Part shown: positions 2,005-5,828 of the stretch, in pieces
Numbering within the stretch: the first letter of the stretch is position 1
How the letters are laid out: every line of letters begins with the position of its first letter
Source: Bacteroidota bacterium
GTDB taxonomy: Bacteria > Bacteroidota > Rhodothermia > Rhodothermales > UBA10348
Assembly (NCBI GenBank): GCA_029262835.1
Contig: JAJCYQ010000057.1
Span: 1 to 36,026 of the forward strand
DNA length: 36,026 nt
Reading direction: 5' to 3'
Made by a program: the position numbers and the translations under genes
The notes under the pieces: model-generated
What the model was told of the DNA's origin: nothing
Database searches by the model: none
The model's input: only the letters and a program-made list of their open reading frames with translations

Positions 2005-2742
2005 TCAAGCACTGCTTCCAAGCGTCGTGTGCAGTTGTGACCTCAGCGAGTCAAAGTTTTCTGCAAAGAGCCGTACGCGGTGTCCGTTGGCACCGGATGG
2101 GTGTGGAAATCCTGAGAGCCACCGATCTGGGTCGATAAGGCGCTCTGCAGTGAGTCGCCGTAGGACCCTCTCAACCGAATTTCCAAAGGGCACGATAACT
2201 GCACTCGGGATTTGCTCGAGTTCACGCACGAGTAATCGGCGAGCGAAGTCCATCAGCAAAGCGGAGCGGTCCGCGTGCGGATTCGTTCCATTATAGTTTC
2301 GAGTCGCCAGAAAAACAGGATACCGAATCGCCGACGTCGTGTGCACGAACGAGCGAGCGGCACCAAATAGCTCTGCCGACGATTGGATACCGAAAAACTG
2401 CGGTAAATTGAGGGCGTCGAGCATTGAGATGAGATTATTTCGCATGCTGCCCGCAAAACTCGCCGTCTGTTTGACCTTGAGACATGCAGTTTCCCAGGAC
2501 ACACCGGCAACAAGTTCATTTCGAACGGTCCGGCTGGCTATCTCCATTTGTGTCCAGCCGGGAGTAATTCCGAGTAGAATCAGCTTCGCATCGGAATTAA
2601 TCGAATCGAATGGTCCGTAGAATACCTTCAGCCGATGTTCCTCAGCGATCTGCAATGCAGGGACAAGGAGATCGGCTTTTTCGTACCGGGCTTTTGGCGG
2701 GAGTGATCGCAGAAAAGGACTGTATTTGCCAAGCATGGACAT
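2005..2742 (-). CDS. Uracil-DNA glycosylase superfamily protein
   Basis: 245 residues. Two motifs place it in the uracil-DNA glycosylase fold: GITPG at 58-62, comparable to the water-activating motif I (GINPG in MUG/TDG), and PHPSGANGHR at 213-222, comparable to the DNA-intercalation motif II (HPS/NPSG). It lacks the GQDPYH of classic Ung, so the base it removes cannot be stated. The ATG at 2742 follows GGAAG; a second ATG two codons on (2736) is also possible. It runs toward the CRISPR array and ends 58 bp from the last repeat. It starts only 17 bp after the stop of the permease gene, so co-transcription is possible. By eye it is less G+C-rich than the permease gene, suggesting acquisition. 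UDG-fold glycosylases that attack modified phage DNA (the Brig1 type) are known, so a defence role is possible but unproven. Confidence 0.75.
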   Translation of the reverse strand: MSMLGKYSPFLRSLPPKARYEKADLLVPALQIAEEHRLKVFYGPFDSINSDAKLILLGITPGWTQMEIASRTVRNELVAGVSWETACLKVKQTASFAGSMRNNLISMLDALNLPQFFGIQSSAELFGAARSFVHTTSAIRYPVFLATRNYNGTNPHADRSALLMDFARRLLVRELEQIPSAVIVPFGNSVERVLRRLTAERLIDPDRWLSGFPHPSGANGHRVRLFAENFDSLRSQLHTTLGSSA

Positions 2743-2759: not shown

Positions 2760-5165
2760 CTACTCCGACCTCAGCGCCTTCACAGGCTGGGCGCGGACGG
2801 CGCGCAGGGCCTGGAGACTGACGGTGGCTATCACCACAATGAGGATAATGCCAGCGGCGGCGAGGAAGGGTGCCGGGCCGAGGTCGGTGCGGTAGGCGAA
2901 CGAGTCGAGCCAGCGCGATCCGGTAATCCAGGCGACGGGGGCCGATAGGGCGAAGGCTATGCCGACGAGTAGCGCAAAATCCCGTACGAAGAGCGAGACG
3001 ACGCTCGTGGCCGATGCTCCGAGCACGCGGCGGATGCCGATCTCCTTGGTGCGGCGGGCGACAACCGTGGCGGCGAGACCCACGAGCCCCATGGCACCGA
3101 TCAGGACGGCGAGCAGTGCGCCGATCGATGCCACGTCGGCCGTGCGGCGTTCCTGCCGGTACTGGGCGGCGAGGTCATCGTCCACGAACTGCGGATTGTA
3201 GGCAATGTCGGGGGCCACGCGCTTCCACACGTCGCCAATGGCGGCGATGGTCGCATCTACGTCTGACCCCACGAGCGGCACGATGATGCTGGGCCGGAAC
3301 CCCCCATCAAAATCCGATATGCCGGACGAGAGCAGGCGCGAATTTATGGCCATGACCGCGGGCTGGATGGATTCGTGGAGCGGCGCGTAGTGGAAATCGC
3401 GCACGACGCCCACAATTTCGTGTTCGTCCCACGGGCCGGGGAGCGTCTCGCTGAGCGGATCGGTCCAGCCGTAGGCTTCGACCAGGGCTTCGTTGACCAT
3501 GAAGCCCCGCAGCGTATCGGCCGGCGTGAAGGCCCGGCCCTCGGTTACCGTGAGGCCGAGCGCTGGCACGAAGTCCGCATCTACCAGATTGGCATGGAAA
3601 CGGCGGTAGGAGCCGTCATTGGCCGTGTAGCCGGCCCTGCCCCAGCCCCGCTCGCCGAACAGTGTGGTCGCGGCGGCGACGCGCTCAATGCCCGAGCGGC
3701 CCTCGAGCTCGGAGCCGAGGCGCTCGGCGAGTGCCTGGGTAGCAGTCCAGCCCTGGTTGGTGTTGACGTACATGACCTGGCGGGCATCGAAGCCGAGGTC
3801 TTTCTGTTCCATGTACTGCAGCTGACTGCGCACAATGACGGTGCCGCTGATAAGGATCATGGCGAGCGCAAACTGCACCATGACGAGGGCGCGCCGGGCC
3901 GTGTGGCTGCTGGCTTCGCGGCCGACTTCTCCGCGCAGGCTGCTGACGGCGCTCAGCCGCGAGAGCAGGGCGGCCGGGTAGAGCCCGCCGGCGACGGAAA
4001 GCAGAAGGAACAGCCCGGCTCCGACGCCGAGCGTGAGGGTTGACAGCCCGATGTCGACCACCTGGCCCGTGAGTTCGTTGAACACCGGCGCCAGGAGGTG
4101 GGCCACCGCGAATCCGGCGAGTACGGCAAAGAGCGTGACGAGCATGCTCTCGCCCCAGAAATGGCCAAGCAACTGCGAGCGCGTGGCGCCGGTGGCCTTG
4201 CGGACCCCGATTTCGCGCGCCCGGCTGAAGAGGCGGCTCAGCGAAAGGGTTACATGATTGATGCTCGCCACAGCAAGCAGAAGCCCCGCAATGCCAAGCA
4301 GCAGATACACATACACAGGGTCGGCAACGCTCGCAAGGCCGCGCGGAACGTCCGTGTTCAGGTGGATGTCGGTGAGCGGTTGCAGCCCGAGGGTGAATTC
4401 CACCTCGCGCTCGCCTCCTACCTCCTCGCGCTGGATGATCTGGGCCATGCCGGTCTCGGCACTTTCCGTGTGGGCGCCCGGTCGCAGCTGGGCATAGGTT
4501 TCGGGCGAAACGTTGAACCAGGCCGTCAGAATGCGCTCCGGATAGACAAGCGGGGCGAGGTCGTAGGAGAGCAGCATGTCGAACTGGATCGATGACGTGC
4601 GGCGCGGCGTTTCAACGACGCCGGCAACGGTGACGGTCATGGCCGAATCGGCCAGCGTGAGCGTCAGCGTCTCGCCAAGCCCCGGCGATTCACCGAACCA
4701 GTCGGCCCGCGCCCGCTCGGTGATGACGATATCATGGGGGCCGCGCATGACGGGCGGGGCGGGGCCTTCCAGGACGTCATGGGGGAAAATGTTGAAAAAT
4801 CCCGGATCGACCATCCGGAAATCGGCGAGTTCGCGGCGGGCGCCCCGCTCCAGGTAGCCTCCTTTCGGATCGAACCGCGTCCAGTTTTCCACGGCTGGGA
4901 CATTGGCGAGCACCGTGGGCCCGACGCGTACGGGCGTCGTGGCGTTGAAAAACTGCTGATCGGGACCCCAGTCCTCCTTGACCCACACGCGGTACGTCCG
5001 GTCATGGTCCTCGAAGTGCCGGTCGTAGCTGAGCTCAGAGAGGGAAAAAACCAGCATGAGGACGGCCGCGCCAACGGCTACGGCGAGGCCGCCGATGGTG
5101 ATGGCGGCAAAGCCGGGCCGGCGGCCGAGGCCGCGAAGCGTGGACGTGACAATTTGTCGGAGCAT
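2760..5165 (-). CDS. FtsX/MacB-type ABC transporter permease
   Basis: 801 residues with the architecture of the large FtsX-like permeases common in Bacteroidota and Rhodothermota. There is an N-terminal membrane segment (about 19-43), then a large periplasmic MacB-like domain, three membrane segments from about 284 to 400, a second membrane-periplasm module beginning near 425, and three C-terminal membrane helices from about 680. The conserved cytosolic loop REIGVRKATGAT occurs after the first core, and KEIGIRRVLGAS after the second. Such proteins move or extract substrates at the inner membrane, driven by a separate MacB/LolD-type ATPase; none lies nearby. The frame is open up to 5423, but I place the start at 5165 (MLRQIVTSTLRGLGRRP) because the upstream residues are low-complexity and not membrane-like. 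No Shine-Dalgarno site is visible. Confidence 0.9.
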   Translation of the reverse strand: MLRQIVTSTLRGLGRRPGFAAITIGGLAVAVGAAVLMLVFSLSELSYDRHFEDHDRTYRVWVKEDWGPDQQFFNATTPVRVGPTVLANVPAVENWTRFDPKGGYLERGARRELADFRMVDPGFFNIFPHDVLEGPAPPVMRGPHDIVITERARADWFGESPGLGETLTLTLADSAMTVTVAGVVETPRRTSSIQFDMLLSYDLAPLVYPERILTAWFNVSPETYAQLRPGAHTESAETGMAQIIQREEVGGEREVEFTLGLQPLTDIHLNTDVPRGLASVADPVYVYLLLGIAGLLLAVASINHVTLSLSRLFSRAREIGVRKATGATRSQLLGHFWGESMLVTLFAVLAGFAVAHLLAPVFNELTGQVVDIGLSTLTLGVGAGLFLLLSVAGGLYPAALLSRLSAVSSLRGEVGREASSHTARRALVMVQFALAMILISGTVIVRSQLQYMEQKDLGFDARQVMYVNTNQGWTATQALAERLGSELEGRSGIERVAAATTLFGERGWGRAGYTANDGSYRRFHANLVDADFVPALGLTVTEGRAFTPADTLRGFMVNEALVEAYGWTDPLSETLPGPWDEHEIVGVVRDFHYAPLHESIQPAVMAINSRLLSSGISDFDGGFRPSIIVPLVGSDVDATIAAIGDVWKRVAPDIAYNPQFVDDDLAAQYRQERRTADVASIGALLAVLIGAMGLVGLAATVVARRTKEIGIRRVLGASATSVVSLFVRDFALLVGIAFALSAPVAWITGSRWLDSFAYRTDLGPAPFLAAAGIILIVVIATVSLQALRAVRAQPVKALRSE

Positions 5166-5399: not shown

Positions 5400-5828
5400 A
5401 TGAATCTGTACATGAATCTGCACCTCAGAATCTTACTCATACTCCTCTCTGCTACGCTCCTTGCTGCCTGTGACAGCGACAGCGACGACGCGGCCCCCGA
5501 CGAAGACGGAGCCGTATTCGTTGTCGAAGTGGAATCGGGCGAGCAGTTCCGCGTGCTGTTGCGCGATGAAGCGCAGATCGCGGAAGCCGAAGCGCTGATC
5601 GGCGCATCGACCCAGAAAATCGTGAATGGCGCGCTGTTGCCGGGCGACGGCGGGTTCAACGCGCCCTGGAGCTGGCATATGGATCCGGACGGTGTGGAGC
5701 TGGCCGACCTTACGATAGAGCTGTGTGACGGCCGCCCTTCCATGGTTGAAGCCGATCTCGATATGTGGTTGAACACTGTGGGCCGGTTCTGTCCGTGGTC
5801 GTCCCGGATTGTGGTGCGCGAAAGATAA
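5400..5828 (+). CDS. BP74-domain-like lipoprotein
   Basis: 142 residues. A lipoprotein signal peptide is clear: a hydrophobic stretch ends in the lipobox LLAAC, with Cys at residue 24, followed by an acidic DSDSDD linker. The mature part carries the pattern of the BP74 N-terminal domain family: EQFRVLLRD, then DGGFNAPWSWHMDP, then VELADLTIELCDGRPS, and GRFCPWSSRIV near the end. The family is named after a Dictyostelium protein, and its bacterial role is not established. Two starts are possible, ATG at 5400 and ATG at 5412; they differ by only four residues before the signal helix. It is divergent from the permease gene and probably monocistronic. Attachment to the outer or inner membrane is inferred from the lipobox. 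Confidence 0.8.
   Translation: MNLYMNLHLRILLILLSATLLAACDSDSDDAAPDEDGAVFVVEVESGEQFRVLLRDEAQIAEAEALIGASTQKIVNGALLPGDGGFNAPWSWHMDPDGVELADLTIELCDGRPSMVEADLDMWLNTVGRFCPWSSRIVVRER

Follow-up and report, generated by a model that had tools for sequence, protein, structure and literature searches.

A UDG-fold DNA glycosylase with a non-canonical active site inside an exchangeable CRISPR-Cas locus

Introduction

Glycosylase-based immunity is a recent discovery (Brig1 in 2024, Brig3 in 2026), and few of its substrates are known. Brig1 is an alpha-glucosyl-hmC DNA glycosylase (PMC11078745) and Brig3 a 5hmC DNA glycosylase (PMC13160076). In a 36,026-nt stretch of DNA from a Bacteroidota bacterium (the window), the gene for a 245-aa DNA glycosylase of an uncharacterised family in the UDG superfamily (2005–2742, minus strand) lies between a CRISPR array and an ABC permease gene. 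Does this enzyme serve immunity or DNA repair? An earlier note on the sequence had proposed an anti-phage role by analogy with Brig1, an interpretation that our analysis partly supports. The family, which is widespread, highly conserved and marked by a different active-site signature, lends itself to direct testing; if it is active, more phage base modifications would be known as base-excision targets of bacteria, and a new base-specific enzyme would be available.

Results and discussion

The glycosylase frame opens with ATG just 3′ of a plausible ribosome-binding site (GGAAGAA), and it is a real gene, since its active-site residues are nearly unchanged across 59 non-redundant homologs. The UDG superfamily profile PF03167 matches the protein at E 8.6e-5 with 23.1 bits, 1.2 bits short of the Pfam cut-off of 24.3, and matches all 14 members of our first family alignment (best E 1.2e-6). 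An AlphaFold2 model, calculated from 13 alignment rows with the plasmid copies left out, has a mean pLDDT of 94.2 and a pTM of 0.91. When this model was aligned to the PDB with VIA-align, UDG entries filled the whole top 50 rows (Z 10.6–12.3), headed by a family-4 UDG (4zbx; Z 12.3, rmsd 3.2, 160 residues), Thermus UDG (1ui0; Z 12.2) and human TDG (Z 12.1). Foldseek agreed, returning UdgX, SMUG1 and family-4 UDG. The earlier note had suggested comparison with MUG, SMUG and Brig1; TDG and SMUG1 are indeed among the matches, and no Brig entry appears in either match list, an absence that excludes nothing. PDB sequences searched with the single sequence and with a profile gave no match, the NCBIfam, PHROGs and PADLOC profiles gave no family match for the glycosylase, and where plasmid copies have a gene annotation, it reads only "hypothetical protein". 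There is good support for a UDG-fold enzyme whose active site is conserved and non-canonical; the likeness of a modelled fold does not by itself show function.

The glycosylase carries GITPG as motif A (residues 58–62) and HPSGANG at residues 214–220, as the earlier note had read them, and its statement that classic uracil-specific motifs are missing holds for families 1–4. Family 1 (UNG) has GQDPYH and HPSPLS where this protein has GITPGW and HPSGAN, and family 3 (SMUG) has GMNPG and HPSPRN in place of GITPG and HPSGAN. Family 2 (MUG/TDG; 4jgc, 4xeg) shares the fold (Z 12.1), and its GINPG is one residue apart from GITPG; however, its catalytic Asn is replaced by Thr60 in every one of the 58 homologs without a gap at this position, and motif B here contains a His. 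Family 4 (UDGa; 4zbx, 1ui0) is closest in fold and also has a motif-B His, but it is defined by GE(A/G)PG, HPA (HPAA against HPSGAN here) and four Fe-S cysteines, whereas our protein has one cysteine only and hence no Fe-S cluster. To judge from these motifs, GITPG combined with HPSGAN is the signature of no known UDG family.

Across the 59 homologs, which come from several phyla, Y42, P44, G58, T60, P61, G62, Q65, K91, R101, S137, G152, G187, H214, S216, A218, N219 and R222 are nearly invariant, giving the family signature GITPG-x-x-Q ... HPSGAN. The third residue of motif A, Thr60 here, is Asp in family 1 and Asn in family 2, and the loss of this water-activating residue would suit a UDG-fold protein that is catalytically dead or has been repurposed, such as a DNA-binding protein or inhibitor decoy. 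We consider that very improbable: families 4, 5 and 6 also lack the motif-A acid yet are active (PMC5387724), and residues as constant as His214, Gln65, Ser137 and Asn219 speak for catalysis. Alternatively, the protein could be an efficient uracil-DNA glycosylase whose motif is unusual and whose activity duplicates that of a family-4 enzyme. This would agree with the UDG fold and with the retained motif-B His, whose role in families 1 and 4 is to stabilise the leaving base (PMC5387724). This second alternative too is unlikely, given a Thr in motif A where Asp, Asn or Ala is expected and a Ser or Thr at the place of the uracil-reading Asn. Moreover, uracil repair is already covered, because a separate gene in the same genome encodes an ordinary family-4 UDG (GEAPG/HPAA). 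Since the genome keeps that enzyme, the likely substrate of the present protein is a base other than uracil.

How far does the active site resemble those of the known immunity glycosylases? Aligning our protein to three family-4 UDGs with hhalign gave no usable alignment (probability 1.3), so residues were mapped by motif order. On published Brig3 residue numbers, T60 would fall at N50, Q65 at E55, T136/S137 at D127 and A218-N219 at A224-N225. In Brig3, N225 is the Asn that enters the duplex, and E55 occupies the place of Q81 in Brig1 (PMC13160076). By these published numbers only, the motif-A Pro and the pocket spacing would correspond (N50-P51-S52-R53-x-E55 in Brig3, T60-P61-G62-W63-x-Q65 here), as would the Ala-Asn of the DNA-entering loop, with the equivalent of Brig3 N225 being Asn. 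The parallel would nonetheless be partial: catalytic Asn50 is replaced by Thr60 and Asp127 by Thr136 or Ser137, and there is no possible partner gene between array and permease here. Brig1 is likewise a single UDG-fold domain with a patchy distribution in defence loci, and its best PDB match is the family-4 UDG of Sulfolobus tokodaii (PMC11078745), the same as for our model. Compared by published residues, its pocket Gln (Q81) would have a counterpart in Q65, whereas its pocket acid E147 would be Thr or Ser here.

The array that the earlier note placed beside the gene is real. A repeat search found 30 repeats of 29 nt (GCCTCAATCGCACCTGCTGGTATTGAAAG; core 28 nt) on the plus strand at 22–1946, with spacers of 36–39 nt, cut by the contig end. 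From the last repeat, 58 bp (1947–2004) lead to the glycosylase stop codon, an interval in which a consensus scan found neither promoter-like nor terminator-like sites. All genomic copies of the repeat fall at two contig ends: 30 head this contig (C57) and 31 close another (C73). The array continues on C73 and, taken across the assembly gap, would be a single one of about 61 repeats. Ahead of the C73 array lie genes with matches to Cas6, Cas3, Cas4 and Cas1, forming a type I CRISPR-Cas operon that lay beyond the view of the earlier note; three further operon genes have no Pfam match, so the label type I-B is a reading of gene order, not a tested subtype. The 3′ end of the repeat (ATTGAAAG), the position of the cas operon and a degenerate repeat near 1852 are all consistent with a leader on C73. 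With leader and cas genes there, the glycosylase gene is leader-distal of the array and convergent with it. When the spacers were compared with phages, a single 37-nt match (E 4e-3) was found; it straddles a repeat–spacer junction and was taken as chance.

On the other side of the glycosylase gene, 17 bp (2743–2759) separate its start from the stop of a MacB/FtsX-type ABC permease (permease A; 2760–5144, minus strand). This is host backbone flank, with 89% DNA identity (2760–5078) to a genome of the same genus, G003. That identity runs to the permease stop codon and then ends exactly, which marks the 17-bp gap as the cassette boundary. In G003 (locus L137, contig C55, 2322–10195), what comes after permease A is another array, whose own repeat core is present in 42 copies, together with Cas1 and a 1210-aa Cas9-like protein with HNH and RuvC, and then permease B, which is also found beyond the cas operon on C73 (75.6% DNA identity). 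A further genome, G002, has permease A followed by unrelated genes. Because one genome has this CRISPR-Cas locus between permeases A and B and the other a Cas9 locus, the interval is a CRISPR-Cas exchange site, with the glycosylase inside it at the edge. The gene is therefore part of an exchangeable immunity locus, a defence-island setting established for this one locus of the family. Base composition divides in the same way. The earlier note had found the gene less G+C-rich than its permease neighbour, and the values are 53.3% against 66.4% (window, 61.7%; array, 55.2%); among 651 backbone stretches of equal length, 17 are as low as the gene or lower. The glycosylase gene shares its G+C with the CRISPR-Cas cassette at 53–56% (cas genes 54.1%, arrays 55–56%), not with backbone permeases A and B (66.4 and 65.4%). 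Two other genes lie nearby: the exchanged interval also holds a 472-aa ribonucleotide reductase small chain match, flanked by permease B and the cas operon (L138, 7168–8589), and a gene with a BP74_N domain (PF23621) adjoins the permease in the window (5400–5828).

A housekeeping family present in all relatives would, according to the earlier note, have spoken against defence. Within the phylum the distribution is the reverse: a good match was found in 1 of 60 relatives and 1 of 394 genomes, in both cases the source genome, with one other weak match that contains stops. Further afield, copies occur in 82 of 295 Paenibacillaceae genomes (28%), in 3 of the 87 genomes searched from one order of Bacteroidota, on 26 plasmids of several phyla and on eight IMG/VR viral contigs, some of them prophage-like. 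No E. coli homolog was found at the DNA level, and described phages searched with a Pseudomonas homolog gave no homolog. The tree places the window copy on a long branch of its own, within a clade that also holds Bacteroidota, Acidobacteriota and Bacilli copies; proteobacterial copies of plasmid or prophage-like origin lie apart from it. An Acidobacteriota copy falls among those of Paenibacillus with moderate support at the fork, a placement that suggests transfer between phyla. Where Paenibacillus copies are more than about 75% identical they have common neighbours, so the gene is mostly vertically inherited there; it looks like a stable chromosomal gene in Paenibacillus, and the family looks resident in parts of Paenibacillaceae.

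The expected link to defence loci also holds in part. The source locus is an exchanged immunity locus, but a simple scan of the other family loci read found no CRISPR array, and the array link is specific to the source genome, not a family trait. Single mobile loci have an Abi-like protein, an MvaI/BcnI restriction-modification set or toxin-antitoxin pairs as neighbours. Several proteobacterial copies, on plasmids or prophage-like contigs, have a small DUF4258-like gene (weak Pfam matches) beside the glycosylase (L011, 7666–7938; L012, 473–751; L098, 5699–5980; L018, 8736–9017), often together with an HTH gene of about 250–320 aa; the two could possibly form a regulated or toxin-antitoxin-like module. 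HEPN-domain and GIY-YIG-like genes lie directly upstream of the Acidobacteriota copy (L002, 6630–7346 and 7374–7874), and a GIY-YIG-like gene is also found upstream of a broken family copy (L006). On a Pseudomonas nitroreducens plasmid, a gene for an Exo_endo_phos protein with a weak Ada-like metal-binding C terminus (L095, 4793–5902) lies 33 bp upstream of the glycosylase. The Exo_endo_phos fold includes AP endonucleases, and this protein could cut abasic sites. PADLOC neighbour counts gave cytosine methyltransferases near three mobile loci and mostly generic-looking matches near Paenibacillus loci; since both gene sets are small and they are not matched to each other, we claim no enrichment. 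The defence and nuclease neighbours of mobile copies, uncounted against a control, are suggestive.

These contexts bear on the main rival explanation, a horizontally spread repair glycosylase for a non-uracil lesion (for example hydroxymethyl- or formyl-uracil, hypoxanthine or xanthine) whose CRISPR adjacency is incidental. The presence of the gene in 28% of Paenibacillaceae, in chromosomal contexts that are conserved inside clades and have no evident defence genes, would fit such a function. So would the DnaG-like primase gene that precedes the glycosylase in two Bacteroidota, the occurrence of TDG complexes with oxidised 5-methylcytosine and hmU products among the best structural matches, and the restriction of the array, among the family loci read, to the source locus. 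The gene is, however, absent from nearly all relatives, has copies on plasmids and prophage-like contigs, and lies inside an exchanged CRISPR-Cas cassette. We regard specialised repair as possible, if somewhat doubtful. A phage-modified base and a role in immunity remain the best single explanation, at about an even chance.

We infer catalysis, substrate and anti-phage role, and on balance find the case evenly poised for an active DNA glycosylase that acts, like Brig1 and Brig3, on a non-uracil and probably phage-modified base. The fold, the near-invariant active site, the separate family-4 UDG, the scattered presence, the exchanged cassette with its matching G+C, the Brig3 residue parallels and the neighbours of the mobile copies were counted for defence. 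Counted against it were the lack of an array at the other family loci read, the clade-conserved contexts in 28% of Paenibacillaceae, the lack of a PADLOC, PHROGs or NCBIfam match and the incompleteness of the Brig3 parallel. The predicted enzyme would flip the modified base out of the duplex, insert Asn219 where that base had been, and hydrolyse the N-glycosidic bond by means of motif-B His214 and a Thr60/Gln65 pocket; the resulting abasic sites would block replication of invading phage DNA. The gene may have come in with the CRISPR-Cas cassette of the source genome or been added to it, and could form a second line of defence against phages that escape sequence-specific nucleases with the help of modified bases. 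The defence lead of the earlier note is therefore worth testing. More tentatively, the signature GITPG-x-x-Q ... HPSGAN might define a widespread, undescribed family of anti-phage glycosylases, directed at a modified base outside the range of Brig1, Brig2, Brig3 and Dag and found on plasmids, in prophages, in Bacilli chromosomes and, in the present case, in a CRISPR-Cas cassette. The family may already be described in a preprint on diverse antiviral glycosylases (10.1101/2025.10.29.685425, as cited by PMC13216743).

The family also varies in architecture. In a Paenibacillaceae subgroup (G433, G451, G463, G484 and G504) the match is split between residues 120 and 133 within a longer frame of 327–455 aa, as if a segment of about 45–75 aa had been inserted at the split. 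Three copies extend at least 100 aa past the C terminus of the glycosylase domain (L021, 3980–5149; L023, 7989–9146; L098, 5992–7260), and L022 and L023 form a divergent pair in which motif B reads AHPSRS.
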